DNA of 64,000 bases from Paenibacillus taihuensis (GTDB taxonomy: Bacteria > Bacillota > Bacilli > Paenibacillales > Paenibacillaceae): NCBI RefSeq assembly GCF_003386535.1, contig NZ_QTTN01000005.1, forward strand, positions 1-64,000, read 5' to 3'. Each line of letters opens with the position of its first letter. Positions within the stretch are counted from its first letter, which is position 1. The translations under genes were made by a program, and so were the position numbers. Shown here piece by piece: positions 14,161-57,488 of the stretch. Under the pieces are notes generated by a model. It searched no databases, had not been told where the DNA came from, and saw only the letters and a list, made by a program, of their open reading frames with translations.

Positions 14161-14345
14161 TAAACGGTTGCCACGGGGGCTATCTGGCCGCAAGAGGCGA
14201 TTTTGGAACGCTCACGGTTGCTGCGTCGGCTATTTGTCGATGTTGATAGCGAATTCGGCTGTTTTGGATCAAATAAGCGCTATGGCAACCGTTTAGATTT
14301 TAAGAAGGGCTGTTTCTGGGCAAATAGGCGCTGTGGTAACAGTTA
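14161..14345. repeat. Intergenic repeat array, family A (two forward, two inverted units)
   Basis: Units of about 24 bases at 14161-14184 and 14211-14234 (forward), and 14272-14295 and 14322-14345 (inverted). The first forward and first inverted copy share TAAACGGTTGCCA exactly. Spacers are about 26-37 bases. The forward and inverted units could pair into one long imperfect cruciform. It lies in the intergenic space where two genes converge. No coding potential is seen. Confidence 0.8.
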
Positions 14346-14353
14346 GAAGCACA

Positions 14354-14388
14354 AAAAGCACAACCATCACAGGTTGTGCTTTTTCTCT
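14354..14388. terminator. Bidirectional terminator between zinc-ribbon and mqnD genes
   Basis: AAAAAGCACAACC and GGTTGTGCTTTTT form a stem with A- and T-runs on both sides, so it can act on both strands. Confidence 0.88.
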
Positions 14389-14394
14389 ATTAGT

Positions 14395-15228
14395 TTACCG
14401 GCGCAGCTTGGCGAGGTCGAACTCGGGGACGAGTCCTTCCTTGGCGGCGCGACCGAGCAGTGCTTCAACCGCTGCGTAACCGTCTTCGCCGAGATTCGCG
14501 GAGAACTCGTTGACGTAAAGTGCGATATGCTGCTTTTGCACATCGGGAGACATCTCTTGCGCGTGCTCCATGACGTAGCCTTGGGACACCTCGGGATGCT
14601 CCCAAGCATATTCAACGGAATCGCGAATCCAAGTCGTGAGCGACTCGATGTCGAGCGAGCGGCGGGCGATGATGGCGCCGAGCGGAATCGGCAGGCCTGT
14701 ATCGGCTTCCCACCAGCTGCCGAGGTCGGCGAGCAGGTTCAGGCCGTAGTTCTGGTACGTGAAGCGGGCCTCGTGGATCACGAGGCCGGCATCGATCGTG
14801 CCTTCCTTGACCGCAGGCATAATTTCATGGAACGGCATGACGATGATTTCCATCTGGCCGCCGGCCACTTGCTGTGCTGCCCAGAGGCGGAACAGCAGGT
14901 AGGCCGTGGAGCGCTCGCTTGGTACTGCGACACGTTTGCCTGCAAGCGAAGCTGCCGTCGTGGAGCCGTCCTTGGTCAGGACGAGCGGACCGCAGCCGCG
15001 TCCGAGTGCGCCGCCGCAAGGCAGAAGCGCGTAATCGTCGAGCACCCATGGGAGTGCGGCGTAGGAAATCTTCAGCACTTCCGGGCCTGTCCGGTTCGCG
15101 GCGAGATTGTTGGTGATGTCGATATCGGCATAGGTGACGTTAAACTCCGGCGCACCTGGAATAAGCCCATGAACCAGGGCGTGAAAAACGAACGTATCGT
15201 TCGGGCAAGGCGAGAACGCTATATTCAT
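14395..15228 (-). CDS. mqnD: 1,4-dihydroxy-6-naphthoate synthase
   Basis: 277 residues, MqnD of the futalosine menaquinone pathway. It converts cyclic dehypoxanthine futalosine to 1,4-dihydroxy-6-naphthoate. The N-terminal SPCPNDTFVFHAL with the ITNNLAANRTGPEVLKISYAA block is characteristic of the MqnA/MqnD periplasmic-binding-like fold. Its ATG overlaps the mqnB stop codon as ATGA, so translation is coupled. Other pathway genes (mqnA, mqnC, mqnE) are not in the window. Confidence 0.92.
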   Translation of the reverse strand: MNIAFSPCPNDTFVFHALVHGLIPGAPEFNVTYADIDITNNLAANRTGPEVLKISYAALPWVLDDYALLPCGGALGRGCGPLVLTKDGSTTAASLAGKRVAVPSERSTAYLLFRLWAAQQVAGGQMEIIVMPFHEIMPAVKEGTIDAGLVIHEARFTYQNYGLNLLADLGSWWEADTGLPIPLGAIIARRSLDIESLTTWIRDSVEYAWEHPEVSQGYVMEHAQEMSPDVQKQHIALYVNEFSANLGEDGYAAVEALLGRAAKEGLVPEFDLAKLRR

Positions 15229-15938
15229 CCTAAGAGCACCTCCGCAAGAAATGTACTAGCTTGTTCGAGCGCACGCAGCGCATCGCCGATGCGCCACGCA
15301 TCGCGGTCACGCGGGCCGACCGCGTTCGAGATTGCGCGCAGCTCCAGCGCGGGAACCCCCGCTTGCTGCGCTGCTGTTGCGACGCCGAAGCCTTCCATCG
15401 CTTCGGCGGCCGCGCCGGGCACGCGCCGCTCATGCTCCGCAGCGGTGGCGGCGGTGCCCGTCGCCGTTGTGACCGTGAGCACAGGACCCGTGCTCACGGT
15501 CAGGCCGGCTTCGCCGCCGAGCTTCGCCGCCAGCGCGCTCGCGAGGCGGGCGTCGGCCGCAATGCGGGATGAGCCGAAGCCGAGCTCATCCACGCTTGCG
15601 AAGCCGTCCGGGGTCTCGACCCCGAGATCGGCGGCGATGATGTCGGTCGCGACGACGAGCGACCCGATAGGCGCCCGCCCAGGGAAGCCGCCCGCGATGC
15701 CGGCGCTGATCACGAGGCGGTACGCCCAAGCGCCGGCCCCCGTGCCCGCCGAGGCCAGCTTCGCGGCGGTGCCCGCCGCTGCTGCGGCAGGGCCAACGCC
15801 TGCAGCGACGACATCGAACCGGTCGTTGCCCTGCAGTCCGCGCAGCACGGCGTCCCGCTCCGCATCGACCGCTGTCACAATCAGAACGCGTCCAAGACAA
15901 CTGGCAGTGCCTGCGATTTGCACAACTTCTTCACTCAT
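15225..15938 (-). CDS. mqnB: Futalosine hydrolase
   Basis: 237 residues, a nucleoside phosphorylase-like hydrolase that removes hypoxanthine from futalosine. Visible signatures are VTAVDAERDAVLRGL, the Gly/Ala-rich AAGVGPAAAAAG loop, SAGIAGGFPGRAPIGSLV, and EAMEGFGVATAAQQAG near the C-terminus. ATG 15938 follows a perfect AAGGAGG, so the longer frame to 15980 is not used. First gene of the mqnB-mqnD operon. The sequence is Ala/Gly-rich with very high GC relative to its neighbours. Confidence 0.9.
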   Translation of the reverse strand: MSEEVVQIAGTASCLGRVLIVTAVDAERDAVLRGLQGNDRFDVVAAGVGPAAAAAGTAAKLASAGTGAGAWAYRLVISAGIAGGFPGRAPIGSLVVATDIIAADLGVETPDGFASVDELGFGSSRIAADARLASALAAKLGGEAGLTVSTGPVLTVTTATGTAATAAEHERRVPGAAAEAMEGFGVATAAQQAGVPALELRAISNAVGPRDRDAWRIGDALRALEQASTFLAEVLLG

Positions 15939-16048
15939 TTGTAAATCCTCCTTCCAAGAAACACGAAACGGTATAAACACTTCCTTTTAATTGTACCGCC
16001 CTCATCGGGCAAGTTCAAATTGCGGAGGCTCCCGCCGGGTCGATCCCT

Positions 16049-16232
16049 CTAAGGAACCGTACGAGCACTATTTCGCCGAAAGCTCCATTCATGAATTTCT
16101 AAGGAACCGTACAGGCCTTATTGGGACAATCTTCAGGGAAAAAGGACCAATTTGAGACGAATAGTGTTCATACGATTCCTTAGCGCTCCAAATCGACTCA
16201 AAAGGCCGAATAAGGTGCTTTGAGTTCCTTAG
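16049..16232. repeat. Intergenic repeat array, family B, locus 1 (F-F-R-R)
   Basis: Four units of about 25 bases begin or end with CTAAGGAA (or its complement) and carry a CGTAC core and a CTTATT end: 16049-16074 and 16099-16123 forward, 16159-16183 and 16208-16232 inverted. The same family recurs at 39043-39227 with the same F-F-R-R order. The 467-base gap between mqnB and the oxidoreductase gene holds only this array and no ORF I trust. Confidence 0.85.
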
Positions 16233-16405
16233 CCAGGTGGGCGAGCGTGCTGAGCGTGAGGCATGTTAAGTGGATATGGGTTAAAAGCGTGCTGATAGAG
16301 TGCGCGAGTCGTGCTGCAAGCGTAAACTAGCCGCAAAGCGCCGACTTGAGCCGCAGCGCCCATAAGAGTAAGCTGGGAAGGTGATATTAAGGATGAGGTG
16401 ACAGA

Positions 16406-17380
16406 ATGAAAGCTTTAGTGTTTCATACATTCGGCGGGCCGGAGGTGCTGGCGCTGCAAGAGATTCCTGATCCGGAGCTCAAAGCAGGCACAGTAAAGGT
16501 ACGCACGGGGGCGATCGGTCTGAACTATGCCGATATTTATCGCCGCCGCGGCAATTACCACTTGGTCGGCCAGCCGCCATACATACTCGGCTACGAAGGA
16601 GCCGGCGAAATCGTTGAAGTCGCATCGGATGTGACGGGCTTTGGGGTTGGCGATCGGATTGGCTTCGCCGATGTGCCGCATGCGAATGCAGAGTTCGTCG
16701 TCGTACCGGCTGACCGTGCGATTAAGCTGCCAGACGGCATCAGCTACGAGGCTGCCGCGTCCGTGCTGCTGCAAGGATTGACGGCACACTACCTCGTGAA
16801 CGACAGCTACAAGGTGCAAGCCGGCGACATGGTGCTCGTCCATGCCGCGGCAGGCGGCGTCGGCCAACTTATGATCCAGCTGTGCAAAGCGAAAGGCGCG
16901 CGAGTCGTCGGTTTGACGTCAAGCCCGGCAAAGCGCGAAGCGGCGCTAGCCACAGGCGCCGACGAAGTATTCCTATATGGCGACGACTGGGTGAGCAGCG
17001 TGCTGGCATGGTCTCAGCAGCAGCAGGCTGAGGGCGTCGATGTCGCCTACGATTCCGTCGGCTCGACGCTGATGGATAGCTTCAAAGCCGTGCGCATGCG
17101 CGGCACGGTCGTCTTCTTCGGCATGGCGGGCGGCGACCCGCAGCCTGTCGATCCGCGCATGCTGATGGACACGAGCAAGACGTTGACGGGCGGCGATCTG
17201 TGGAACCATGTGACGACGGCGGAGGAGCGGAATCGCCGGGCGGGTTCGCTCTTTGCGGACATGCTTGAAGGCAAGCTCCAGCTCGTTGAACCGAAGACGT
17301 TCCCGCTTGCAGACGGTGCAGAGGCGCATCGATACTTGGAGAGCCGGGCGAGCACAGGCAAAATTTTGCTTATTCCGTAA
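16406..17380 (+). CDS. NADPH:quinone oxidoreductase, MDR superfamily (zinc-independent)
   Basis: 324 residues. An N-terminal GroES-like domain (GLNYADIYRRRGNY) is followed by a Rossmann domain with HAAAGGVGQLMIQLCKAKGARVVG, the quinone reductase signature. Zinc-ligand cysteines are absent, as in QOR-type members. It reduces quinones or enones using NADPH. ATG 16406 follows GGATGAGGTGACAG. It stands alone, about 50 bases before a small conserved gene. Confidence 0.88.
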   Translation: MKALVFHTFGGPEVLALQEIPDPELKAGTVKVRTGAIGLNYADIYRRRGNYHLVGQPPYILGYEGAGEIVEVASDVTGFGVGDRIGFADVPHANAEFVVVPADRAIKLPDGISYEAAASVLLQGLTAHYLVNDSYKVQAGDMVLVHAAAGGVGQLMIQLCKAKGARVVGLTSSPAKREAALATGADEVFLYGDDWVSSVLAWSQQQQAEGVDVAYDSVGSTLMDSFKAVRMRGTVVFFGMAGGDPQPVDPRMLMDTSKTLTGGDLWNHVTTAEERNRRAGSLFADMLEGKLQLVEPKTFPLADGAEAHRYLESRASTGKILLIP

Positions 17381-17430
17381 GTGTGCTACAATGAAAGCAC
17401 CTATTAAATCACGCACAGGAGATGACAACT

Positions 17431-17709
17431 ATGAGCGAACAGATCAATATGAATGAGCTTATCTCGTTTATCGCAGGCAAGACGAAAGCGGATCCGGCCA
17501 GCATCGAGCAGGTGCTGAAGCATGAGCAAGCGTACATCAACAACGCGCCTGAAGATAAGAACGGCGAAGTGAACATCGACAGCGACGAGCTTGTCGACTA
17601 CATCCTTAGCCGTCCCGGTCACAAGCTGGACGAGCCGACTGTCGAGCAAATTCTCGATGCAGAGATGGACTACTTGATGGACAAAGGAATTGCAGGCTAC
17701 GCCGACTAA
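17431..17709 (+). CDS. Small acidic hypothetical protein
   Basis: 92 residues from ATG 17431, which lies 9 bases after AGGAG; the ATG at 17422 is too close to the site. The protein is strongly acidic and helical (NELISFIAGKTKADPASIEQVLKHE region), with no signal peptide and no cysteine. I do not recognise a family. It is followed by a strong terminator, which supports a real gene, and is probably transcribed with the oxidoreductase 50 bases upstream. Confidence 0.72.
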   Translation: MSEQINMNELISFIAGKTKADPASIEQVLKHEQAYINNAPEDKNGEVNIDSDELVDYILSRPGHKLDEPTVEQILDAEMDYLMDKGIAGYAD

Positions 17710-17743
17710 TTCGTCCACCTGCAGAAGCATACGAAACATAAGG

Positions 17744-17778
17744 GACGCGTCACCTTCCGAGGTGACGCGTCTTTTCTA
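17744..17778 (+). terminator. Strong intrinsic terminator
   Basis: Perfect twelve-base arms starting GACGCGTCACCT, a four-base loop, then TTTT. Confidence 0.9.
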
Positions 17779-17899
17779 TTTATTTCCACATACTTGCACG
17801 AATGCCGTTCCTCTTAGCGCTTGGCAAGCACATACATGAAGTAGTAGATTGCTAGATTGTCAGACAAGCATAAAAGCCGCTAAGGGGGACCCGTTCGAT

Positions 17900-19468
17900 A
17901 TGCCGCATACAGCGTTAGCCAATTGGTTCAGAGAGAGATATAAAGAAACGATGGGAGATGAAGATTGGCATTGGCGGGCTCCGCATCCGCTCGCTTCACG
18001 GCCTTCGAAGCGGCCCGCGCCTGTATCGCAAGCGGGACATGATCCTGCACCCAGCCGCGCTGCGTCCGCATCCCCGCGAATTGCGATCGTCGGAGCAGGC
18101 CTTGCCGGGCTTACGTGCGCCTACCGGCTTCAGCAAGCGGGCTATTCCGCGACGATATTCGAAGCGGATCATCGGCGCTTTAGCGGGCGCTGCGATTCGA
18201 AGCGGGGGGTTTTTGACGAAGGGCAAGTGATCGAACGGGGCGGCATGCTGATCGATACGGGGCATATGGCGCTGCGCGGGCTTATTGATGAACTGGGTCT
18301 GACGACGACGGATCTGATCGCGTCTCAGGCGGCGGGGACGGAGCCCCTTTACTATTTTGATGGACAGCCTTATACCCTTGAGGAGGCAGCCGCGGATTTC
18401 AGACAGGTCATTCCGAAGCTGAACGCGGATGTGCGGCAGGCGGGATTCCCGGCAACCTACAATCAGTATACGGCAAGAGCGCTTGAGCTGGACCAGATGT
18501 CGGTTATCGACTGGATTGAAGAGAGCGTCCCTGGGGGCACAAAGTCAAAGCTCGGGAGGCTGATCGATATCGCCTGCAATATCGAGTATGGGGCAGAGTC
18601 TGAGGAGCAGAGCGCGCTGAATTTTATCTATCTGCACGAACAGGTGGGGGAGGACGATACGTTCTCGGTCTTCGGCATATCGGATGAGCGGTTTCAGGTC
18701 AAGGGCGGCAACGACCAGATCGTGCACCGGCTCGTGGACAGGCTCGCGCCCGGCAATATTCGCAGAGGCACTCGGCTGATTGCGATTGAGGAGCGGCTGG
18801 ACGGGACGTATCAGCTCACACTTCAGGACCGGGCGGGAATCTATAAAATCGAAGTAGAAGTGGTCGTGTTGACGCTGCCTTTCTCCATTCTGCGCAGCTC
18901 GGTCGATTACAGCAAGGCTGGCTTTCGTCCGTTGAAAATCGCGGCGATTGAAGAGCTCGGCATGGGGGCAAACAGCAAGCTCCATCTGCAGTTCAAGGAG
19001 CGCTACTGGACGAAGCTTGGCTACAACGGGGATACGATCGCGGACACGGGGTATCAAAATACGTTCGACGTCACTCGCGGTCAGGCCGGCGAGTCGGGCA
19101 TTCTCGTTCAGTACACGGGCGGCCATGTCGCGGAGGGCATGCATCTGGGATCGCCAATCGAGAGGGCGCATCAATTCCTGCAGCAGCTCGAGCCGTTGCT
19201 TCCAGGCATCTCCGCGCAGTGGAACGGCAAGGCGGCACGCGATCATTGGGTGCATAATCCGTTCTCGCTCGGCTCCTACTCCTATCGCAAAATCGGTCAG
19301 TTTACGAAGTTCGCAGGCATCGAAGGCGAGTCGGAGGGCCAGCGGGGGAATTGTTATTTTGCCGGGGAGCATACCTCGGTCGTCTATCAAGGATATATGA
19401 ACGGGGCGGTCGAGAGCGGCGAACAGGCTGCCGATCGCATTAAAAAAGGCGTCAGCCGGTCCATATAG
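17900..19468 (+). CDS. Flavin-containing amine oxidase / FAD-dependent oxidoreductase
   Basis: 522 residues. A basic, proline-rich N-terminal segment of about 55 residues precedes the FAD-binding Rossmann motif IAIVGAGLAGLTCAYRLQQAG and the EADHRRFSGR region. The C-terminal FAD-contact motif is CYFAGEHTSVVYQGYMNGAVESG, the monoamine oxidase/L-amino acid oxidase pattern. It oxidises a primary or secondary amine or amino acid to an imine with H2O2. ATG 17900 is used because AAGGGGG lies upstream; a TTG at 17849 would be the alternative. No transporter or regulator is adjacent, so the substrate is unknown. Confidence 0.85.
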   Translation: MPHTALANWFRERYKETMGDEDWHWRAPHPLASRPSKRPAPVSQAGHDPAPSRAASASPRIAIVGAGLAGLTCAYRLQQAGYSATIFEADHRRFSGRCDSKRGVFDEGQVIERGGMLIDTGHMALRGLIDELGLTTTDLIASQAAGTEPLYYFDGQPYTLEEAAADFRQVIPKLNADVRQAGFPATYNQYTARALELDQMSVIDWIEESVPGGTKSKLGRLIDIACNIEYGAESEEQSALNFIYLHEQVGEDDTFSVFGISDERFQVKGGNDQIVHRLVDRLAPGNIRRGTRLIAIEERLDGTYQLTLQDRAGIYKIEVEVVVLTLPFSILRSSVDYSKAGFRPLKIAAIEELGMGANSKLHLQFKERYWTKLGYNGDTIADTGYQNTFDVTRGQAGESGILVQYTGGHVAEGMHLGSPIERAHQFLQQLEPLLPGISAQWNGKAARDHWVHNPFSLGSYSYRKIGQFTKFAGIEGESEGQRGNCYFAGEHTSVVYQGYMNGAVESGEQAADRIKKGVSRSI

Positions 19469-19490
19469 GTCCTAAGCTGACGCCTTTCGT
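19445..19490. terminator. Bidirectional hairpin overlapping the oxidase 3' end
   Basis: AAAGGCGTCAGC (19445-19456) and GCTGACGCCTTT (19476-19487) form a perfect twelve-base stem that includes the last codons. It probably also terminates the minus-strand DUF4023-like gene. Confidence 0.75.
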
Positions 19491-19613
19491 CTATTTATTC
19501 GTGCTATGCTGCTTGTTGGCGAGCTGCTTGGCCGGATTCTTGCCTTTCTTATTATGCTCGGCCTTATTCTGCGTGTCATTCAGCTTGTTTACAAAATCAC
19601 TCGTTTGATCCAC
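19491..19613 (-). CDS. 40-residue DUF4023-like small protein
   Basis: GTG 19613 to TAG 19491, 40 residues beginning MDQTSDFVNKLNDTQ and ending QLANKQHSTNK. A perfect GAAGGAGG lies 7 bases before the start. The very polar, Lys/Asn/Gln-rich sequence with NPAKQLANKQH resembles, from memory, the short DUF4023 proteins of Bacillus and Paenibacillus, whose function is unknown. Composition is reminiscent of small acid-soluble spore proteins. It is too short for ordinary ORF thresholds, but the start signal and the terminator support it. Confidence 0.68.
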   Translation of the reverse strand: MDQTSDFVNKLNDTQNKAEHNKKGKNPAKQLANKQHSTNK

Positions 19614-19777
19614 AGGTGTCCCTCCTTCTAGGCTCAGGTGCGCATATAGTCTGCCCATCTGCCGGCAGTAAACATGCAGGTTCGGCAGTCTATCCGGCTG
19701 CGGTTACGGTATAATACAAGTAGCTGTTGAAGTCCGCCGAACCAGCGGCTTCTTCTGCATGATTATCTCCCTCATAG

Positions 19778-19960
19778 TGGATATTTCCAATATAGAACGG
19801 CTCTTTGAGCAATATTTGCAAGCTATAATGGAAAAATCCACCCACTCCCGTCCGGTATAAGCGGAAATCGCGCTTTTAGCCGATAATGAATGGATAAATT
19901 CAATATAGCCGGGCAAAATCGCCGAAATCGGCTCAAATGATTGGAAAAATCCAATATAGC
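19778..19960. repeat. Intergenic repeat array, family C, locus 1
   Basis: Four units built on TGGATAAATCCAATATAG: 19778-19795 (forward), 19823-19841 (inverted), 19891-19909 and 19942-19960 (forward). Each unit contains the short palindrome TGGAT-N-ATCCA and a flanking ATATAG. The same family recurs at 38764-38951. The last unit overlaps the frame that precedes the TSUP gene. Confidence 0.85.
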
Positions 19961-20009
19961 AACTCAAACTCAAACTCAAACTCAAACTCAAACTCAAACT
20001 CTAACTCAA
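19961..20009. repeat. Hexanucleotide microsatellite (AACTCA)n
   Basis: About eight near-perfect copies of AACTCA, with one copy varied to AACTCT. It lies directly after the last family C unit and 49 bases before the TSUP start codon. In frame it would read Thr-Gln repeats, but the real start is probably downstream. Confidence 0.9.
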
Positions 20010-20057
20010 ACGCTGCCTGCCATTATTCTACTTTTTGGAAAAGAGGGTCTATCACTC

Positions 20058-20891
20058 GTGAATCCAGACGCCTTCATGTGGGACTTGCCCACAATGCTTG
20101 TCCTGTTCGTGCTCGGCCTTGTCGCTTCCACCTTCGGCGCTATCGTCGGGCTTGGAGGCGGCGTTATTCTCGTGCCCGCGCTGCTGCTGCTCGGCCCGTC
20201 TATGCTCGGCATGGATGTCGATACGACGCTCGCGGTCGGCGTCTCCCTCGGCGTACTCGTGTTCACGTCGCTGTCGTCGACGCTGACGTTCATGCGCGAG
20301 GGCAAGACGGACCTCCGCAGCGCGCTCTTCTTCGCCATCTCTAGCGGGCCGATGTCGATGGCTGGAGCAAGTCTTACCTCGCTCTTCAACCCGGACATGT
20401 TCCGCCGGGCGTTCGGTATCTTCATGCTGGTCATGGTCGTTCTGATGCTACTGCGCAGCCGGATCAAGCCGTATCGGGGGCGCTGGCGCTACAACCGCTT
20501 GTACGTCGATGACAGCGGGACTGTCAAGCACTACGGCTATAACGCGCTTCCTGCGCTGCTTATCGGCGGCATAGTTGGGCTTGTCGCTGGGCTGCTTGGC
20601 ATTGGCGGCGGCGTGCTGCTTATTCCGGCCATGCTGCTGCTGTTCAGCTTTCCGCCGCATATTGCGACAGCGACCTCGATGGCTGTAATTTTCATCTCCG
20701 CCTTGCTCGGCAGCGCCGTCCACCTGTACCGCGGGGAGTGGGACTGGGTGCTCGTCCTATCGCTGGCGCCGGGTGCGCTCATTGGCGGTTGGCTAGGCGC
20801 AATCATCTCCCGCCGGATCGGCGGTGTGCTGCTCGTGCGGATTATGTGCGCGGCTTTGCTGTTATTTGCCTGCCGCATGATCATTACATAG
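20058..20891 (+). CDS. TSUP-family (TauE/SafE-like) anion/sulfur-compound exporter
   Basis: 277 residues, seven to eight membrane segments, with the duplicated TSUP signatures VASTFGAIVGLGGGVILVPALLLLG and VAGLLGIGGGVLLIPAMLLLF. Family members move sulfite, sulfoacetate or similar anions. I place the start at GTG 20058, downstream of AAGAGGG. Reading from 19941 would add a Thr-Gln-repeat tail encoded by the microsatellite and a repeat unit, and the family usually begins near this GTG. An AraC regulator starts 17 bases downstream. Confidence 0.8.
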   Translation: MNPDAFMWDLPTMLVLFVLGLVASTFGAIVGLGGGVILVPALLLLGPSMLGMDVDTTLAVGVSLGVLVFTSLSSTLTFMREGKTDLRSALFFAISSGPMSMAGASLTSLFNPDMFRRAFGIFMLVMVVLMLLRSRIKPYRGRWRYNRLYVDDSGTVKHYGYNALPALLIGGIVGLVAGLLGIGGGVLLIPAMLLLFSFPPHIATATSMAVIFISALLGSAVHLYRGEWDWVLVLSLAPGALIGGWLGAIISRRIGGVLLVRIMCAALLLFACRMIIT

Positions 20892-20908
20892 GGGAGGGCT
20901 CTTATTTC

Positions 20909-21880: not shown

Positions 21881-22016
21881 TTGGGTTCTTGTCGCCGTTT
21901 GTGCAAAAAGAAGCGCTTACGCTCCAAATACATCACCAACCCGGTTGATGTAGGATGAACCTAATAGAATCTTGAATTTTGAATCTGGATTCAATTCTCC
22001 GGGAGGGTATCAGCCG

Positions 22017-23144: not shown

Positions 23145-23148
23145 TTGT

Positions 23149-23188
23149 AAAAAGGAGCGGGCACACTTGGTGTGCCCGCTCCTTTTGT
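23149..23188 (+). terminator. Strong intrinsic terminator
   Basis: Arms GGAGCGGGCACAC and GTGTGCCCGCTCC around a three-base loop, flanked by A- and T-runs, five bases after the GH99-like stop codon. Confidence 0.93.
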
Positions 23189-23235
23189 TATCGTAAGTGA
23201 TTCCCGCCCCGGCCGTTTACCACTTCGGACTTTGG

Positions 23236-23421
23236 ATAAGTGCAAATAGGCACTTATTAAAGGTGGAATCACGGTAATGCGCCGGTATAAGTGCAATAAT
23301 GCACTTATTTTCGGCAGAATAAGCGATTCCGCCGTGGTAGGCCAGAAATTAGTGTATATTTGCACCTATTCCGGGAGAAAGGAGACTAGGCAAGTGGAAT
23401 AAGTGTATTTTTGCACTTATA
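23236..23421. repeat. Intergenic repeat array, family D, locus 1
   Basis: Four palindromic units of the type ATAAGTGC-N-GCACTTAT at 23236-23258, 23287-23309, 23349-23370 and 23398-23421, with cores rich in A and T. The family recurs at 51311-51495. It lies in the intergenic space between convergent genes, after a terminator. Confidence 0.86.
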
Positions 23422-23442
23422 CGCGAGTATTCTTAGGAGCCT

Positions 23443-30298: not shown

Positions 30299-30326
30299 GT
30301 GTGTTGCGCGGCCGTGAGGGTGGGTG

Positions 30327-30620
30327 CTGAGAGAGCTTATATGGTCTCTCGCAGTTGAAAATGCGAGAGAAAGAAGCTGAGAGAGCCAAAACGGATTTCT
30401 CGCAGTCGAACCACCGGGAATAGGTTGCTGAGAAATCCAATATGGCTCTCTTAGCACCAGAAGTAGCTGGAATGGCATGTTGCGGTGAGCTGAGAGTCGG
30501 AAAATCCGTCTCTCAGGAGCAGATTCGCTGGAAAAACTCGCTGAGAGTCGGAAAACCCGACTCTCGCTCATCCGCCATCGACGAAACAGGTCACTGTGGA
30601 GCCTGAGAGTCGGAAAACCC
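30327..30620. repeat. Intergenic repeat array, family E, locus 1 (six units)
   Basis: Units of the type CTGAGAGTCGGAAAATCC followed by its closing arm GACTCTC: 30327-30353, 30377-30404, 30426-30454, 30489-30515, 30541-30566, and a truncated copy at 30602-30620. The third unit is the inverted version of the second. The family recurs at 57349-57488. No ORF is convincing here. Confidence 0.86.
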
Positions 30621-39042: not shown

Positions 39043-39227
39043 CTAAGGAATCGTACGGTGCTTATTCGGTGATTTATCGTCCATTCGACGCTCTAAGGAA
39101 CCACAGGAAGCTTATATGGTGTTACACGTCAGAAATTTCTCTCTGAACTGGCAAATAGCGTGTGTGGAGTTCCTTAGCTATCCCTGGCCGCCAATTTCGC
39201 CCGGATAGTGTCGCTGGAGTTCCTTAG
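39043..39227. repeat. Intergenic repeat array, family B, locus 2 (F-F-R-R)
   Basis: Units at 39043-39067 and 39093-39118 (forward), 39152-39177 and 39203-39227 (inverted), matching locus 1 at 16049-16232. The last unit supplies the TAA stop codon of the minus-strand GGDEF-EAL gene. Confidence 0.85.
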
Positions 39228-45557: not shown

Positions 45558-45586
45558 TTGCTTTTCAAACATAGTTATGCTAATAT
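45558..45586 (+). promoter_or_regulatory. Predicted sigma-A promoter of the cold-shock gene
   Basis: TTGCTT (45558-45563), a 17-base spacer, TAATAT (45581-45586). The start site would be near 45593, giving a leader of about 140 bases. Confidence 0.6.
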
Positions 45587-45614
45587 GATCTTAGTCATGA
45601 AAGAACCTGAATTC

Positions 45615-45680
45615 ACATATTGAAAAGGGTTGTCATTTTGTGCGAGATGGTACCTTTTTCAATGTGTGATTTTTTTATTT
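45615..45680 (+). promoter_or_regulatory. Terminator-like hairpin in the cold-shock leader
   Basis: CACATATTGAAAAGGG (45615-45630) pairs with CCTTTTTCAATGTGTG (45654-45669) with two mismatches, and a run of seven T follows. It lies between the promoter and the start codon. It could attenuate csp at warm temperature, or simply end the E1-like transcript. Confidence 0.55.
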
Positions 45681-45734
45681 GTCGTAAACGAATAAAAAGT
45701 ACATGTTAATTTAATTTTTTGGAGGTAATTCCAC

Positions 45735-45935
45735 ATGCAACAAGGAACAGTTAAATGGTTTAACGCTGAGAAAGGCTTCGGTTTCATCGAAGTTGAAGGC
45801 GGCAACGATGTATTCGTACACTTCTCCGCAATCGTAGGCGAAGGCTTCAAGACTCTTGACGAAGGCCAACGCGTTGAGTTCAACGTAGTTCAAGGCAACC
45901 GTGGTCCACAAGCTGAGAACGTTGTAAAACTGTAA
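45735..45935 (+). CDS. Cold-shock protein (CspA/CspB family)
   Basis: 66 residues, single-strand nucleic-acid binding beta barrel. RNP1 (KGFGFI) and RNP2 (VFVHF) motifs are intact. It acts as an RNA chaperone in the cytoplasm. Start ATG follows GGAGGT by eight bases. The AT-rich leader with a hairpin is typical of cold-inducible csp genes. Confidence 0.95.
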
Positions 45936-45955
45936 TAGTTTTATTACGATCAATG

Positions 45956-45991
45956 AAACTGCCCTTAACTTAGGTTAAGGGCAGTTTTTTT
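45956..45991 (+). terminator. Terminator of the cold-shock gene
   Basis: AAACTGCCCTTAAC and its complement around a four-base loop, followed by a T-run. Confidence 0.93.
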
Positions 45992-46003
45992 ATGCATCAT
46001 TTC

Positions 46004-46420: not shown

Positions 46421-46434
46421 CCTACTCCCCCAAA

Positions 46435-46851: not shown

Positions 46852-46885
46852 TAACACATATACCGACCACCTGTTCGTATGTAAG

Positions 46886-47008: not shown

Positions 47009-47033
47009 GCTTTATCACAAGAGGAGGGGAACT

Positions 47034-47420: not shown

Positions 47421-47427
47421 TTGCTGC

Positions 47428-47472
47428 TTGCCGCTGGACAAGCTTATGCTACAATAAAAGAACAAATGTTCG
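47428..47472 (+). promoter_or_regulatory. Helicase promoter with LexA-type SOS box
   Basis: TTGCCG (47428-47433), 16-base spacer, TACAAT (47450-47455). GAACAAATGTTC at 47460-47471, followed by G, fits the Gram-positive LexA box CGAAC-RNRY-GTTYG at every position except the first base. It overlaps the expected transcription start. Confidence 0.7.
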
Positions 47473-47502
47473 AAATTTAGTCCGTGGTTACAGGAGAATG
47501 AG

Positions 47503-51199: not shown

Positions 51200-51310
51200 G
51201 TGAGCTGGCCTCCCGGTCAGACATCATAGAGAATAACCGTGACTGATTGTTAGAGTTTTCCTTCCTTGAATTTTACCACTAATTCTCGAGAAAAAGCTGT
51301 CTTGGTACGC

Positions 51311-51495
51311 GATAAGTGCGAATATACACGTAACAGAAGATGAATCACTCAACGGCGCGGGAATAGGTGCAAAAATGCAACTATTTTCGACTAAATAGAC
51401 GGTTTCACCGAATTGAGACAGAAATAAGTGGCTTTTTGCACTTATTCCGGATGAAACATCGTGAAATTGCAAAATAGATGCATATTTGCACTAAA
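51311..51495. repeat. Intergenic repeat array, family D, locus 2
   Basis: Four units at 51311-51332, 51361-51385, 51423-51446 and 51472-51495 of the ATAAGTGC-N-GCACTTAT type, as at 23236-23421, but more diverged. The 395-base gap between the sigma and cupredoxin genes otherwise holds only the hairpin GGGTAAC/GTTACCC (51553-51583), which may end the cupredoxin transcript. Confidence 0.8.
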
Positions 51496-51594
51496 CAGGA
51501 ACGATTGCACGCTGATTCGCGAACTCTCCGACAGGGGACTTCTACGAACGGAGGGTAACCATCCCAAGAGAGGACAGTTACCCCATGTGAACAT

Positions 51595-52377
51595 TTATTT
51601 TGCGACGATGATCGTCGCCTGCATGCCGGGATGCGGCGCGCAGTGATATTCGAACGAGCCTTCATCGTTGAAGGTAATGACCTTGCCTTCGTCCTTGCCG
51701 AGCAAATCGGTGTCGAAGATGCCATCGTCAGATGTCGCTGAATGCTTCACATCGTCCCGGTTAATAAACTTGACCGTGTCACCCGGGTGAATCGTCAACT
51801 TATCCGGCGAGAATGAAAAATCCTTAATTTCCACGACATACTGCTTGCTCTGCGGCTTCGTGTCCGTGCTGCCGGCCGCCGGTTTGTCGGCTGGCTTCGT
51901 AGTCGACGGCTTATCAGCAGGCTTCGTTGTATCCTTGGCCGGAGTCTTGCCGCCTTTGTCGTCGCCAGGTTCGGCCTTGGAGCCGCCGCCCTTGTCGTCG
52001 CCAGCATCGCTCTTCGAATCCGCTCCGCTCACATCGCTCGCTGCTTCGGCATTTTTCGAATCAGAACCGCCGCTGCTTCCTGCATTCCCGGCAGTCGTAC
52101 TGTCGTCCGATGCGGCTGGCGAGCTGGAATCGTCAGTCGCGCTAGCCGAATCCCCGCCTGCCGAGTTATCCGCCGTCTGCGTCGTTGCCGTATTCGTCGT
52201 GGTCGCCGAGTCGTCTGCTGCTATATGGCTTTGATTTTGAGAATTTTGCTCTGCTGCCGAATCTTTCTTGCCGCATGCAATCAGGCTCAATGCGACAACA
52301 AGCAGCAGGCATAGGAGGAAGAAGCCCTTTCGACGACTGACGGGTTTCCTATTCATGAGTTTCCAGGGCATATGCAT
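51595..52377 (-). CDS. Cupredoxin-domain lipoprotein with long disordered linker
   Basis: 260 residues. Lipoprotein signal with lipobox LIAC, then about 120 residues of Ser/Thr/Ala/Asp and Lys/Pro-rich low complexity (DKGG and KPADKP repeats), then a plastocyanin-like domain with copper ligands H in DVKHSA and C, H, M in YHCAPHPGM. It is an extracellular type-1 copper protein, anchored by lipid and lifted through the wall by the linker. It starts four bases after the upstream cupredoxin gene. ATG 52356 is an alternative start. Confidence 0.87.
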   Translation of the reverse strand: MHMPWKLMNRKPVSRRKGFFLLCLLLVVALSLIACGKKDSAAEQNSQNQSHIAADDSATTTNTATTQTADNSAGGDSASATDDSSSPAASDDSTTAGNAGSSGGSDSKNAEAASDVSGADSKSDAGDDKGGGSKAEPGDDKGGKTPAKDTTKPADKPSTTKPADKPAAGSTDTKPQSKQYVVEIKDFSFSPDKLTIHPGDTVKFINRDDVKHSATSDDGIFDTDLLGKDEGKVITFNDEGSFEYHCAPHPGMQATIIVAK

Positions 52378-52381
52378 TCAC

Positions 52382-53980
52382 TCACTTTACAATAATTTGG
52401 CCAGTCATGAACTTCTTGTGCGGCTCGCAATAGTAATCGTAAGTGCCCGGCTTCGTCAGCGTAATCGTGTGCGATTCGCCTTTCTTCATAAGCGGCAGCT
52501 TGAAGCTTCCGTCTACGGCAACTGCGTTGTGCTCCATATCATCGAAATTCGTGAACACGATTTGCGATCCGGCTTCGACTGTAAGCGGACCTGTGCCGAA
52601 GGAGTAATCCTTGATATCGATGTGATACGTCTTCACTGCAGGCGCTGCTGCTCCTGCCGTCGTACCTGTGAATTTCGCTGGATCAACCACGTACCAGACG
52701 TTGCCCACGCCTTGCCCAACTGCGTCGCCGTGCTTCACATCCTTGATGAAGTAGTACAGCGGATAGCCTTTGTACGTCGTTTGCTTGCTGCCGTCAGCGC
52801 GTGTAATCGTTCCGAAGTCGGAGCTAGCTACGCCAGTCGGCGCGCTGCTTCCTTTCGCGAGATATGCCGGCCAGTTCGCCAAGCAAGTGCCTTCGCAGAC
52901 GCTCTTATTCATTGTATCTTTGTCAAAATAGTACAGCGTGCGGCCATTCTCGTCTGTCAGGTAGTTGCCGAGCGTCGCGGAAGTGCCGACCATAGCGGCA
53001 TAGTCTTGTTTCGCTACGAACCAAACGACGCCGACGGCTTCACCGTTCACGTCACCAGCAGCCATATCTTTGGCAAAATAGTACAGCGGCCAGCCTTTAT
53101 ACGTTGTCTGCTCCGTACCATCCGCACGTTTATAGACGCCGAAATCGTCCGCGTTCATCGAGGACGGAATTTGCAGCTTGTCGGCGTAGAAGATCGGCCA
53201 AGCGGTCAAACATTGACCTTGGCACGACTCCAGATTCGCAGCATCCTTCGTGAAATAGTAGAGCGTGCGGCCTGCGCTGTCAGTCAGGTATGTGCCGAGC
53301 TTCGCGTTCTTGCCAAGTCCGATGCGCGTGCCGCTAGGCTGCACAGCGGTTTTAGCAATGACGCCGCGGTCTTGCAGCTGCGCGAACAGCGTCATGCCCG
53401 CAGGTGTCTTTCCATTGAGGGACTCGATCAGTGCTGTTGCGATATCGTTGTTCGTCAGCATCGATACGCCTGCGATTTGCGTGAGACCCTTGCCCGCCGC
53501 AAAAGAGATCGTATCCGCATACTTGTAATCCGTGCCGGACTTGTAACCAAGCGCCTCGAGCAGCACTTTGTAGAACTGCTGCGCGCTGATCATCTCAAGC
53601 GGATCGAACTTGCCGCCGCCGATGCCGTTCCAGCCGAGCTCCGCGTGTGCTTTCAGGTAAGCGAGTACGGGCTTATTCGCCGTGCCTACTTGTGTAGCGT
53701 CCGCGAAATTATCCGTGCCTGTGTAAGCAAGCGCATCCTGCAGCTTGCCTTGAAGGCGCAGGGAGATGATTGCGGCCTGAAGGCGCGTGGACATTTTGCC
53801 CAGATAGTCGTTCGATACGCCATTGCCGTCGCCAATAAGCAGGCCGAGCTTCGCAGCTGCTTCGGCATCGGTTGCCGCAACGTTCATCTCTTCCTCTGCG
53901 GAAGCACTAAGTACGGGAATCATCAAAGATAAGCATAAGGTGAATGCAAGCAAAAAAAGCCCAAACCTCGTTCTCTTCAT
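52382..53980 (-). CDS. Secreted protein with Lipoprotein_15 repeats and a C-terminal cupredoxin domain
   Basis: 532 residues. Signal peptide with cleavage near SASA-EEE. Residues about 35-210 are a helical region resembling SLH-type counting segments. Two repeats of the secreted COG4315/Lipoprotein_15 type follow, each with GRTLYYF-TKD and CxxxCLxxWP (ESCQGQCLTAWP, SVCEGTCLANWP). A C-terminal cupredoxin has H in MEHNA and C and H in YYCEPHKKFM. Start ATG follows AAAGGAGGATATGACGA. Likely a multi-domain extracellular redox or metal-binding protein. Confidence 0.86.
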   Translation of the reverse strand: MKRTRFGLFLLAFTLCLSLMIPVLSASAEEEMNVAATDAEAAAKLGLLIGDGNGVSNDYLGKMSTRLQAAIISLRLQGKLQDALAYTGTDNFADATQVGTANKPVLAYLKAHAELGWNGIGGGKFDPLEMISAQQFYKVLLEALGYKSGTDYKYADTISFAAGKGLTQIAGVSMLTNNDIATALIESLNGKTPAGMTLFAQLQDRGVIAKTAVQPSGTRIGLGKNAKLGTYLTDSAGRTLYYFTKDAANLESCQGQCLTAWPIFYADKLQIPSSMNADDFGVYKRADGTEQTTYKGWPLYYFAKDMAAGDVNGEAVGVVWFVAKQDYAAMVGTSATLGNYLTDENGRTLYYFDKDTMNKSVCEGTCLANWPAYLAKGSSAPTGVASSDFGTITRADGSKQTTYKGYPLYYFIKDVKHGDAVGQGVGNVWYVVDPAKFTGTTAGAAAPAVKTYHIDIKDYSFGTGPLTVEAGSQIVFTNFDDMEHNAVAVDGSFKLPLMKKGESHTITLTKPGTYDYYCEPHKKFMTGQIIVK

Positions 53981-54023
53981 TCGTCATATCCTCCTTTAAA
54001 GTGGCTGTCATTAGGAGGTAACG

Positions 54024-54155
54024 ATGGAGAGCCCATATCGGTTTGAGCTGAAATTGATTATTTTTAAAAAAAAGTATTCGGTGGTCTATGCTAGCGGTTT
54101 CTCATATACGTTTATCCAGAAGCCATCAATGACGCTGGCGCCGCGATGCGCGTAG
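54024..54155 (+). CDS. Possible 43-residue ORF antisense to the GNAT 3' end
   Basis: ATG 54024 to TAG 54155 preceded by a textbook AGGAGGT with a short spacer. Product begins MESPYRFELKLIIFKKKYSV. The second half overlaps the acetyltransferase gene on the other strand. No family is recognised. Only the ribosome binding site supports it. Confidence 0.25.
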   Translation: MESPYRFELKLIIFKKKYSVVYASGFSYTFIQKPSMTLAPRCA

Positions 54156-54547
54156 CCGTTATTGAGGAATAGCTTCTTGGCTCCGAGCTGGTTGGTGAGG
54201 GCATCAAGATAGATATGCCGGAAGCCGAGCTCTTTCGCCCTCTCTTCCAGTTTCGTCAGCAAGCGCTGGCCGTAGCCGTTCTGCTGATAGTCGGGATGAA
54301 CGCGCAGCCGTTTGATCTCCGCCGTATACTCATCGAGTTTCTTCAGCCCGCCCATCGCAACAACAACCCCATTGGCATTCGTCCCGACGATAAAGTCGCC
54401 GCCGCTGCTGAGATACTGCTCTTCAATCTGAAATATATCATGGTAATGCTCATGCGTTGGCTCTACACCTGCTGCGGATATGACAAGCAGATGCAGCTGC
54501 CAGATGTCATCATGGTCGGCTTGGGAATAGCGTCTAATGTGGATCAA
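54086..54547 (-). CDS. GNAT-family N-acetyltransferase
   Basis: 153 residues. The acetyl-CoA binding pattern RVHPDYQQNGYGQRLLTKLEERAKELG and a C-terminal FLNNGYAHRG segment are typical. Substrate unknown. Monocistronic. Confidence 0.87.
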   Translation of the reverse strand: MIHIRRYSQADHDDIWQLHLLVISAAGVEPTHEHYHDIFQIEEQYLSSGGDFIVGTNANGVVVAMGGLKKLDEYTAEIKRLRVHPDYQQNGYGQRLLTKLEERAKELGFRHIYLDALTNQLGAKKLFLNNGYAHRGASVIDGFWINVYEKPLA

Positions 54548-54784
54548 GGGGCATCGCTCCTTTTCCGAGACAATCTTTGAAAACTCTAAACGTATATGTA
54601 ATATAATCTAACACAAAGACAAGCCTTATTGATAGGATTTTATAGTTCGTCCGCGAAAAATTGGGGTTATTCGCTGTGTTCAGCTATATGTGTGAGGTTT
54701 ATGTAAAAGATAATGGGATTGAATAGCGGATGCTTTTGCTCAATAATGAGAGAAAGCGGTAAAAGAGAAGGAGCTGAGGACGAC

Positions 54785-55297
54785 ATGAAGGTGGTCGTTG
54801 TTTCGGATACTCATATGACACGGATGGCGAAGAAGCTGCCGGAGCGGCTGGTTGAGGAGCTGATGAGCGCGGATGCCATCCTGCACGCAGGTGATTGGAT
54901 GACGCTGTCGGTGCTGGAAATGCTAGAGAGCTATGCCCGAACAGAAGGCGTGGCGGGCAATAATGACGGCAGCGATATCATCGCGAAGCTCGGCTGGCGT
55001 AAGCTGCTGGAGATTGAGGGCGTGCGGGTCGGGCTCGTTCATGGGCATCAAGGGACGGGCGGCCGGTCGGATACGGAGCTGAATGCGTATCGGGCTTTTG
55101 CAAAGGATCAGGCTGACATTGTTGTGTTCGGCCACTCGCATGTTCCTCTGAAGAAGGAACTGAACGGGGTGCTTATGTTTAACCCGGGTTCGCCTACGGA
55201 TAAGAGAAGGCAGGCACAGTACTCGTTTGGCGTATTAGTGATCGAGGGCGGCAAGGTAAAGTCGGCGGAGCATATTTTCTACGATAACAAGAACTGA
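54785..55297 (+). CDS. YfcE/MJ0936-type metallophosphoesterase
   Basis: 170 residues from ATG 54785 after AAGGAG. Metal ligands in VSDTH, HAGD, GNND, HGH and GHSH are all present, followed by NPGSPTDKR, the phosphodiesterase signature. The family hydrolyses phosphodiesters such as cyclic nucleotides or nucleotide-linked compounds. It lies 24 bases upstream of the Tet(M)-like GTPase and is probably co-transcribed. Confidence 0.9.
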   Translation: MKVVVVSDTHMTRMAKKLPERLVEELMSADAILHAGDWMTLSVLEMLESYARTEGVAGNNDGSDIIAKLGWRKLLEIEGVRVGLVHGHQGTGGRSDTELNAYRAFAKDQADIVVFGHSHVPLKKELNGVLMFNPGSPTDKRRQAQYSFGVLVIEGGKVKSAEHIFYDNKN

Positions 55298-55321
55298 CGT
55301 ATAAGAGGGGAATGGCTTACG

Positions 55322-57328
55322 ATGAGCGCGGAGCAGCAGAACTTGCGCAATGTCGGCATCTTCGCCCATGTTGATGCGGGGAAGACGACGACGACGGAGC
55401 AGATGCTTTATCTTAGCGGCCACATTAGGTCGCTCGGCAGCGTAGATACGGGAACGACGCAGACGGATTGGCTCGATGTCGAGCGGGAGCGGGGCATTTC
55501 GGTGCGGGCTGCGGTGACGCGGCTGACGTGGAAGGAGACGCCGATCAATCTGGTCGACACGCCGGGGCATGTCGATTTTCTATCTGAAGTAGAGCGGTCG
55601 CTGCGAGTGATGGACGGCGCGGTGCTGATCGTTTCGGCGGTAGAAGGCGTGCAGGCGCAGACGGAGATTATTTGGCAGGCGCTTCGCGACCTTAAGATCC
55701 CAACGCTGATCTACGTGAACAAGCTGGATCGGATCGGCGCGGACCCATTGGGAGTGTTGGGACAGATTCATCGGCTGATGTCGCCGCAGGCGGTTCCGAT
55801 TATGGCGCCTGATGGAGCGGAGGCGGAATTTAGAGGGTCGGTTTCGGTGGTGGACGAGCAGTCAGTGGAGGGGACGGTTACTCAGGTTGAGTGGGCGGAG
55901 CCCTATCGCCGGATACTGCTTGAGGCGGTGGCGGAGCAGGACGAGGATATGCTCGAAGCTTATTTGGACGGGCAGTCGATCGGCAGGGATAGGCTTACGG
56001 CTGGGCTGATTGATGGCGTGCATCGATGCGCATTGTACCCGGTGCTGTTCGGGGCTTCTGGCCGCGGCATTGGCGTAGAGGCGCTGATGGATGCGGTTGT
56101 GGCGTACTTGCCGGGACCATCGGGGAAGGAAGGGGATGCGGTGTCGGGTGTCATCTTCAAGATGGAGCGGGACCCCGTCATGGGCAAAATCGCATATGTG
56201 CGGTTGTATGGCGGCGTGCTCCGCAACCGGGATACGGTTCTGAACTACAGCCGCGACTTGCAGGATAAAGTGACGCAGATCCGCCGGGTGAACGGGCAGA
56301 AGACCGAGGACATCGGCGTGCTGAAGGCGGGGGATATCGCCGCCGTCTATGGGTGGAGCCGCGCGCGGATTGGCGATATCATCGGCAATCCCGAAGCTGT
56401 TCCCGGCGAGATGAAGCTGGCCGTGCCGCTGCTGACGGTGCAGGTGCATTGGCAGAGCGCCGCGGAGTACCCGGCGGTCGTGGCGGCTTTTCAAGAGCTG
56501 GCGGACGAGGATCCGCTGCTCGACTTGCAATGGCTTCAGGATGAGCGGGAGCTTCATCTGAAGGTGATGGGCCCGATTCAGATGGAGGTGCTGACCTCCA
56601 TTCTGCAGAGCCGGTTCAAGCTGGCGGTGAGCTTCGGCGCACCGTCCGTTATCTATAAGGAGACGCCGGCATCGGCGGGCGAAGGGTTCGTCGCGTATTT
56701 GGCGCCGAAGCCATGCTGGGCGATCCTGCGGTTTGTTATTGAGCCGGGCGAGCGGGGCAGCGGGCTTGTCTATAAGTCGCTGGTGCGAGGCGAGCGTCTG
56801 CTCGAGAGCTACCAGAACGAGGTGGCGCGCCGGGCTCCGGAGGCGCTGCAGCAGGGCTTGCGCGGCTGGGAGGTCACCGACCTGAGCGTGACCTTGGTGG
56901 AGGGGGAGCATCATGTGTGGCATACCCATCCGCTTGATTTTGTCATCGCGACGCCGATGGGCATCATGAACGGGCTCGCGAATGTCGGCACGAAGCTGCT
57001 CGAGCCGATGCTTCGATTTAGGTTATCCGTGCCGGAGGAGTACGGAGGCAAAATCATGAACGAGCTCGTCGTCATGCGCGGCGAATTCGATGCGCCGTCG
57101 GTGCGGCAGGAGCGCATGGAAATCGAGGGGCTGCTGCCGGTGGCGACGACGCTCGATTTCCCCGCGCGGCTCGGCGCCATGACGAAGGGGCGCGGCACGC
57201 TCACGACCTTCTTCGCCAGTTACCGCGAATGCCCGCCGGACGTCGACGTGTCGCGCACGCGCCGCGGCGTCAATCCGCTCGACGAGGCGAAATTCATTCT
57301 CGCGATGCGGAATGCGCTGAGCGGTTAG
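55322..57328 (+). CDS. Tet(M)/Otr(A)-like ribosomal-protection GTPase family protein
   Basis: 668 residues, EF-G-like. GTPase motifs AHVDAGKTTTTE, DTPGHVDF and NKLD are intact, followed by EF-G domains II to V. Tetracycline ribosomal protection proteins carry a domain-IV loop with Tyr-Ser-Pro-Val. At the equivalent place (residues 530-537) this protein has HHVWHTHP. It may therefore be a housekeeping or differently targeted translation factor and not a tetracycline-resistance determinant. Co-transcribed with the phosphodiesterase upstream. The family call is firm; resistance is unproven. Confidence 0.83.
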   Translation: MSAEQQNLRNVGIFAHVDAGKTTTTEQMLYLSGHIRSLGSVDTGTTQTDWLDVERERGISVRAAVTRLTWKETPINLVDTPGHVDFLSEVERSLRVMDGAVLIVSAVEGVQAQTEIIWQALRDLKIPTLIYVNKLDRIGADPLGVLGQIHRLMSPQAVPIMAPDGAEAEFRGSVSVVDEQSVEGTVTQVEWAEPYRRILLEAVAEQDEDMLEAYLDGQSIGRDRLTAGLIDGVHRCALYPVLFGASGRGIGVEALMDAVVAYLPGPSGKEGDAVSGVIFKMERDPVMGKIAYVRLYGGVLRNRDTVLNYSRDLQDKVTQIRRVNGQKTEDIGVLKAGDIAAVYGWSRARIGDIIGNPEAVPGEMKLAVPLLTVQVHWQSAAEYPAVVAAFQELADEDPLLDLQWLQDERELHLKVMGPIQMEVLTSILQSRFKLAVSFGAPSVIYKETPASAGEGFVAYLAPKPCWAILRFVIEPGERGSGLVYKSLVRGERLLESYQNEVARRAPEALQQGLRGWEVTDLSVTLVEGEHHVWHTHPLDFVIATPMGIMNGLANVGTKLLEPMLRFRLSVPEEYGGKIMNELVVMRGEFDAPSVRQERMEIEGLLPVATTLDFPARLGAMTKGRGTLTTFFASYRECPPDVDVSRTRRGVNPLDEAKFILAMRNALSG

Positions 57329-57348
57329 CGTGTGGGCGCCGTTCCGGC

Positions 57349-57488
57349 GCTGAGAGCGGGAAAAGCCGCTCTCAAATACCAAAAAGGGTTAGTTTTCCGT
57401 GCAAACCCGACTGAGAGACGGAAAATCCGACTGTCGAGGTGCGCATCGGGCAATTTCGTGCGTGAGAGTCAGGAAATCCGACTCTCAG
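57349..57488. repeat. Intergenic repeat array, family E, locus 2
   Basis: Units at 57349-57375, 57411-57438 and 57461-57488 of the GAGAGTCGG-N-CCGACTCTC type, as at 30327-30620. A further weaker copy follows near 57525. The array sits between the GTPase gene and the shared terminator. Confidence 0.84.

Follow-up and report, generated by a model that had tools for sequence, protein, structure and literature searches.

Dispersed four-unit DNA arrays with helically phased A/T tracts in Paenibacillus taihuensis and their probable pairing with a family of nuclease-like winged-helix proteins

The window analysed here, a stretch of 64,000 nucleotides from Paenibacillus taihuensis (assembly GCF_003386535.1, contig NZ_QTTN01000005.1), carries nine short repeat arrays of five sequence families, A to E (Table 1). 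These arrays probably belong to a two-part genetic system, as its non-coding part; the second part would be a family of proteins of ~218 amino acids that combine a nuclease-like domain with a winged helix. Arrays of this class, which are numerous in Paenibacillus-group soil bacteria, are built on one ruler of unit spacings, have A/T tracts phased at ~10.1 bp, in most of the families examined have one copy beside a gene of the protein family, and have diverged in correlation with its proteins; family C is abundant in this genome, and six of the nine window elements are missing from the syntenic sites of a congener. From these observations we infer that the proteins may bind their elements, cut DNA and so cause the elements to move. 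An initial annotation of the window had listed all nine arrays, and each was found at its position.

In families A to D, an element of ~185 bp consists of four units of ~26 bp, two in forward and two in reverse orientation (F F R R), and across the class the unit starts are separated by steps of 50-51, ~58-62 and 50-51 bp. A scan blind to the unit sequences (four 25-base units, eight unit orders, and spacings of 40-65 and 45-75 bp) read A1, B1, B2, C2, D1 and D2 in the window as F F R R with steps of 50-51, 58-62 and 49-51 bp, and recovered C1 at a score of 92. For a wider view, a further 1.2 Mb of this genome (G000, 6.79 Mb in all) and 0.4 Mb of a congener (G001) were sampled. With a 49-52-bp ruler, 36 matches scoring at least 96 were obtained in 1.264 Mb of G000 and 15 in G001, compared with only 0-2 and 0-3 matches, respectively, for each of eleven alternative rulers, while dinucleotide-shuffled G000 DNA yielded zero matches even at scores of at least 84. 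Direct repeats of 25-mers, counted in 0.864 Mb of G000, had their maxima at shifts of 50 (17 repeats) and 51 (30 repeats), with mostly 1-3 at the remaining shifts and up to 10 at other multiples of three. At scores of at least 100 (1.264 Mb, G000 and G001 mixed), F F R R was found 37 times, F F F F 29 times, F R F R 20 times and F R R F 18 times; units of family E and of a further family, F, which lies outside the window, also score in the other orders because they are palindromic or tandem. Family E is a string of near-palindromic units whose two spacers repeat directly with a period of 112 (51+61), and family F consists largely of 51-bp tandems.

The unit starts of the window families are CTAACGG, CTAAGG, GCTATA, GGATAAG and GCTGAGAG. 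Families A and B have CTAA(C/G)G...YTATT in common, so that the earlier description of the families as unrelated fails for this pair, while that of one common design stands. Similarly, three to six units per array had been described, and four turned out to be the rule, with ~six in E1 and three in E2; the arrays had also been placed always between genes, from which B2 and C1 depart by running about 4 and 20 bases, respectively, into the ends of predicted open reading frames. An A-type search pattern was run through one genome each of 84,980 species and matched at least 118 stretches, of which 80 were scanned and 73 held complete elements. This pattern fixes the 50-bp spacing in one element half and leaves the inner distance unfixed; therefore only the spacing of the other half and the inner distance are free evidence at these loci. 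All four A/B anchors were present in 72 of ~156 scanned elements of all families, taken from G000, G001 and the loci found by the pattern; in these 72 the inner distance was 82-84 bp (64 elements) or 92-93 bp (eight), a step of one helical turn. Scan matches below a score of 91 were dropped before the phase and placement analyses, as was one GC-rich coding match (L042) from most of these. Two mosaic elements in G000 (L118:14307 and L123:6852) join halves from different-looking unit families and keep the ~51-bp ruler. Further unit families, e.g. TTAGTGATCA...TGATCACTAA, were seen on the same ruler in a genome of another GTDB family (G014; L157, L158 and L160).

The second property of the class is a helical phase. 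The A/T content oscillates in one phase across units and spacers, an oscillation that dies away at the ends of the elements (53 elements, 106 halves). At 10.2 bp, 36 of 56 elements surpass the 99th percentile set by random 188-mers, including 9/9 of family C, 2/2 of D and 11/13 of A/B. The best periods were 10.06 bp for A/B, 10.10 for D, 10.14 for C, and 10.20 for both E and F; at a helical period of ~10.1-10.2 bp, 51 bp corresponds to five turns and 61 bp to six. When the units were masked, the spacers and loops alone gave a period of 10.08-10.14 bp, with a mean power of 1.74 in 147 elements versus 0.38 in 290 flanks masked in the same manner (p 1e-49). Across 55 A-type elements, AA/TT, AT and TA share their maxima, and GC, CG and GG/CC are offset by half a turn; when 24 A-D elements were centred on their dyads, peaks recurred at intervals of ~10 bp between -90 and +90, the loop included. 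A search by periodicity only placed 1.25% of the 160-bp intergenic windows of G000 above a power of 12 at 10.2 bp, as against at most 0.03% at test periods of 9.6 bp and below or 11.0 bp and above, and 0.012% of coding windows at 10.2 bp.

The initial annotation had considered RNA or DNA cruciform elements, a reading that is not favoured, the common signal being an A/T phase of ~10.1 bp at the level of DNA, continuous across the spacers. Complementarity between spacers 1 and 2 was 33%, versus 28% for unrelated elements (n=57), and the E spacers are direct repeats, which led us to reject the cruciform; as RNA, single elements have stable folds but these differ among elements, and the A and B units are not hairpins by eye. 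No element in the window matched Rfam at the gathering score, in keeping with the proposal of one class of dispersed elements; the only Rfam match of the window was the cspA thermoregulator RNA (RF01766, 85.5 bits) at 45584-45988.

The partner protein has a PD-(D/E)XK domain resembling Vsr and the homing endonuclease I-Bth0305I, followed by a winged helix. Among the genes near the pattern loci, it stood out as a family with no Pfam match above the cutoff that recurs in five loci, next to elements. Residues D, E and H of the nuclease core are conserved (the EDxHD-type acidic residues and the histidine are present), and the winged helix resembles MarR/ArsR folds, the VIA-align matches listed being mostly winged helix; a PDB sequence search with the protein returned weak eS25 ribosomal matches only. 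The C-type protein scores 0.3 bits above the cutoff for DUF559, some C-type homologues have a precomputed PF18741 match, and NCBI names for homologues include 'transcriptional regulator' and 'BlaI/MecI/CopY family'. The family has nine match places in G000, or ten with a profile, zero of them inside the window. Homologues were found in 123 of 147 genomes of the window's GTDB family (Paenibacillaceae) and in 30 of 250 genomes of the class, 14 of these lying outside the family, two of them weak.

Elements accompany these genes. Whereas the five initial partner loci were found through elements, 30 loci of the family were picked by protein score alone, and 29 of them have an element within 1.5 kb, on the 3' side in 27 and on the 5' side in four; in 22 it lies at most 150 bp from the 3' end of the gene. 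Random 3.6-kb pieces contain an element in 8.6% of cases in G000, 8.0% in G001, 0 in G010, 0 in G012 and 14.6% in G014. Genus loci found via the C-type protein have an element in 17 of 19, some on the 5' side only. Six of the eight G000 gene loci examined have an element in the flank, namely an A element at contig C21, a C element at C3:138880-139521, two of type D at C55, an array of family E next to a broken gene on C3, and two F-type arrays, unlike each other, at C30 and C23; the A1, C, D and E1 elements of the window are closest to the array of their own gene (Table 1). Among the other genus loci, repeated 51-52-bp arrays with new unit sequences lie beside homologue genes at L327, L337, L340 and L342; class F is perhaps the form with the most repetition. 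On contig C10 of genome G004, separate searches placed a BLAST match of D2 (82778-82912) ~500 bp from a partner homologue (83422-84024).

Protein and unit distances are correlated over 55 loci (Mantel r 0.856, 0/5000 permutations), seven of 62 homologue loci having been dropped for a broken or short protein or for having no element; the correlation was 0.49 within the A clade and 0.54 outside it. The correlation demonstrates co-inheritance and is consistent with matched specificity, short of proof of binding.

Record titles of the A-type matches listed name Paenibacillus, Cohnella, Saccharibacillus, Fontibacillus or a Paenibacillaceae metagenome-assembled genome, and Cohnella, Saccharibacillus and Fontibacillus are members of the Paenibacillaceae. 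G014, which belongs to another GTDB family, has five elements scoring at least 88 in 100 kb, and G012 has zero in the 100 kb sampled. Far from being limited to the few copies first noticed, family C has 211 unit matches (at most three mismatches) in G000, with 0 for a reversed-pattern control; 21 other genus genomes have 0-3 each (reversed control up to 1). The abundance of family C is thus lineage-specific.

The elements are unevenly placed among gene spacers. In G000 and G001 together, 26 of 49 placed elements lie in convergent, 20 in tandem and 3 in divergent spacers, and 7 more overlap predicted genes. The 34 intergenic elements of G000 divide into 17 convergent, 15 tandem and 2 divergent, compared with 33, 159 and 52 of the 244 intergenic regions of at least 200 bp; for the pattern loci (n=84) the counts are 30, 48 and 6, with 65, 233 and 63 spacers available. 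Turnover is seen by synteny. Between 8.6 and 59 kb, the window aligns with G001 in syntenic blocks, most of them 80-84% identical (71-88%; blocks >60 bp, short repeats apart), and B1, C1, D1, C2, B2 and D2 are missing from the G001 spacers; the block gaps of another genome, G029, are too small for the same six. The D2 locus is matched in 18 other genus genomes, in 12 of them by both flanks, 32-198 bp apart, and in six by one flank only, and no alignment spans D2.

In a typical family of the proposed two-part system, a protein gene would have its own element at the 3' end and further copies dispersed in spacers. Dimers of the protein would bind the units, and bending or wrapping of the DNA, made possible by the phased A/T tracts, would bring four dimers together on one face; by a nick or a cut, the nuclease might then start the copying of the element into other intergenic spacers, where new copies would be tolerated mostly downstream of genes. 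Such a system would be REPIN/RAYT-like (REPIN, repetitive extragenic palindromic (REP) doublets forming hairpins; RAYT, REP-associated tyrosine transposase), except that its enzyme would be unrelated and would act on double-stranded DNA. More tentatively, a homing-endonuclease-like family may propagate, in addition to its own gene, dispersed non-coding elements that are wrapped in a nucleosome-like way (~18 turns of 10.1 bp, four dimer sites, one face), with the protein-DNA codes of the paralogs diversifying fast and giving several independent, mutually blind systems per genome; this fuller picture is possible rather than probable.

Several observations weigh against the two-part system. The phase exceeds the 99th percentile in no more than 5/11 F and 9/21 E elements, and in the 51-bp tandems of the F class the 10.2-bp period arises in part as a harmonic of 51. 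At residue 86, the K position of D..ExK, 34 of 55 proteins have Q, 16 have D, 3 K and 2 H, which makes cutting uncertain; the second structural model, of the C-type protein, is weak (predicted local distance difference test score 73.7). The A and E genes of G000 are broken, a gene at a contig end and a gene fragment in the same genome are without an element, B1 and B2 have no matching cognate array among those of the G000 paralog genes, and L298 is the single locus of the 30 picked by protein that has no element. Outside the window's family, only 4 of 12 credible loci have one (L354, L360, L362 and L366), L368 gave GC-rich doubtful matches only, and G010 has three homologues, yet the 120 kb sampled from it yielded one GC-rich coding-like match (score 89) and no element at 90 or above. 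The correlation of protein and unit distances may arise from shared descent alone. No insertion between close strains was seen, an all-against-all comparison of the 118 pattern loci giving one distant pair only, and no target-site duplication is readable at the empty sites because the nearest genomes are ~82% identical and the flanks have diverged.

The main rival, unlikely in our estimate, explains the arrays as host chromosome-structure sites downstream of genes, i.e. bent or wrapped DNA used by a nucleoid protein, gyrase or the cognate protein for supercoiling; the protein would have been domesticated for an architectural or regulatory role, and the turnover of the elements would come from duplication under selection. 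A supercoiling role at gene ends would suit both the phasing of AA/TT, AT and TA against GC at 10.1 bp and the enrichment of convergent ends in G000 (17/34 elements versus 33/244 spacers), and in E. coli the gyrase motifs are phased too and BIME-2, a bacterial interspersed mosaic element, holds gyrase sites (PMC6379681). The gyrase motif given there, however, is laid out as 47-36-47 bp with a period of 10.75 bp. A gyrase site was rejected on the periods of 10.06-10.20 bp by family and on their continuity through the dyad in the 24 A-D elements, where the ~10.1-bp phase is unbroken at the centre, and a general host factor would leave unexplained why unit sequences match the paralog genes.

An ordinary transcription regulator with the elements as operators, as the database names and the MarR/ArsR-like winged helix would have it, is improbable: of 30 loci, 27 have an element 3' of the gene and four have one 5', few elements lie in divergent spacers (6/84 at the pattern loci; 3/49 in G000 and G001), and the D, E and H of the nuclease core are conserved. 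Lower still in probability are ordinary miniature inverted-repeat transposable elements (MITEs), which would have arisen by deletion from a DDE transposon that has a pair of binding sites at each end. The direct pair of sites at either end and the inverted arrangement of the ends do recall the ends of Tn7 or Mu, but no transposase was recognised in the 14 gene clusters listed for the 80 pattern loci, no systematic search having covered larger elements that carry a transposase between unit pairs, and the nuclease family recurs in five of these 80 loci. In bcr1 and other MITEs we know of no four-site phased ruler or cognate nuclease. They resemble the present elements as dispersed non-coding elements of 70-300 bp (for MITEs, PMC3733652). 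Hairpins of REPIN or BIME type mobilised by a Y1 transposase (IS200/IS605, RAYT), the suggestion of the initial annotation, have a similar genome ecology, being short, intergenic, palindromic and numerous and having a cognate gene. They are scarcely credible here, since PF01797 has 0 matches in G000 and matches in 5 of 14 control genomes, and the gene-linked protein has a different fold; for G000 they are already contradicted, barring a Y1 gene that the assembly lacks. Of that annotation's proposal, the class of dispersed elements is borne out, linked to one protein family, and the transposase, like the cruciform, is not.

Among known systems, REPIN/RAYT pairs short, intergenic, palindromic multicopy elements with a co-evolving cognate nuclease gene that carries its own elements (PMC3116915, PMC8266576, PMC6006769). 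The cognate gene is flanked by its own element here too (29/30 family loci; 6/8 G000 genes); the enzyme differs, a PD-(D/E)XK and winged-helix protein in place of a Y1 (HUH) enzyme, as do the four helically phased sites over ~185 bp in place of two hairpins, and no GTAG/CGTC-tagged palindrome occurs among the window unit starts as read from the unit lists, without a formal motif search. BIME-2 is likewise intergenic and expands by tandem units with two spacer types, as the E arrays do with their period of 112, and is gyrase-linked in E. coli (PMC6379681); it differs in unit sequence, 51/61 ruler, cognate gene and hosts, and in the gyrase period of 10.75 bp versus ~10.1 bp. The EDxHD or Vsr-like homing endonuclease I-Bth0305I shares the PD-(D/E)XK fold with its conserved acidic residues and histidine, whereas the present gene is free-standing, with a winged helix and dispersed non-coding arrays, and its homing-like activity is putative. 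As to the DUF559/REase_MTES_1575 proteins (PF04480, PF18741), the C-type protein narrowly passes the cutoff of DUF559, which Pfam lists as of unknown function, and no link to extragenic elements was found for them in the open-access literature. That literature, subscription journals being mostly outside its scope, yielded no description of the elements or of a link to the partner family. The system appears novel because its enzyme, element architecture and helical code each differ from the dispersed-repeat systems compared, while its way of life is like that of REPtrons (REPIN/RAYT, TnpA-REP).

Table 1. The nine arrays of the window, with unit identity to arrays beside G000 genes and the state of the syntenic site in G001 (F, forward; R, reverse)
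Element	Positions	Strand	Sequence and units	Identity to gene-linked array	Syntenic site in G001
A1	14161..14345	.	CTAACGGTTG...CTATTTG; units 14162, 14212 (F), 14270, 14321 (R)	0.75 to array beside A-type gene; <=0.53 to other five arrays	different element, similar ruler 51/54-56/50
B1	16048..16233	.	CTAAGGAAC...CTATTTCG; units 16048, 16098 (F), 16160, 16209 (R)		missing
C1	19772..19961	.	CTATATTGGATTTATCCACTCATTT family	0.83 to array of C-type gene	missing
D1	23234..23422	.	TATAAGTGCAAATATGCACTTATTT family; units 23234, 23285 (F), 23347, 23398 (R)	0.87 to array of D-type gene	missing
E1	30326..30620	.	GAGAGT...ACTCTC; ~six near-palindromic units, spacing 51-61 bp	0.68 to array beside broken E-type gene	own E array
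C2	38764..38951	.	units 38764, 38815 (F), 38876, 38927 (R)	0.87 to C-type array	missing; spacer between both genes holds terminator only
B2	39043..39227	.	units 39044, 39094 (F), 39152, 39202 (R)		missing
D2	51311..51496	.	units 51311, 51362 (F), 51422, 51472 (R)	0.84 to D-type array	missing
E2	57349..57488	.	three near-palindromic E units	0.57 to E array (weak)	related E array

Two other repeats were seen in the window, a tandem run of the hexamer AACTCA (19961-20020) directly adjoining C1, and 36-bp repeats within a predicted coding gene (51949-52017), of which the G001 counterpart has more copies.

If the two-part system is real, it would give bacteria a second, enzymatically unrelated way of keeping short extragenic repeats in large populations, which until now have been linked to HUH enzymes, and may be a new kind of self-spreading DNA. 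With many paralogs, each having its own unit sequence on one fixed geometry, it would also offer a natural experiment in protein-DNA co-evolution, and with the dyad-symmetric 185-bp DNA phased at ~10.1 bp, it can be tested directly whether a bacterial protein wraps DNA in a nucleosome-like way.

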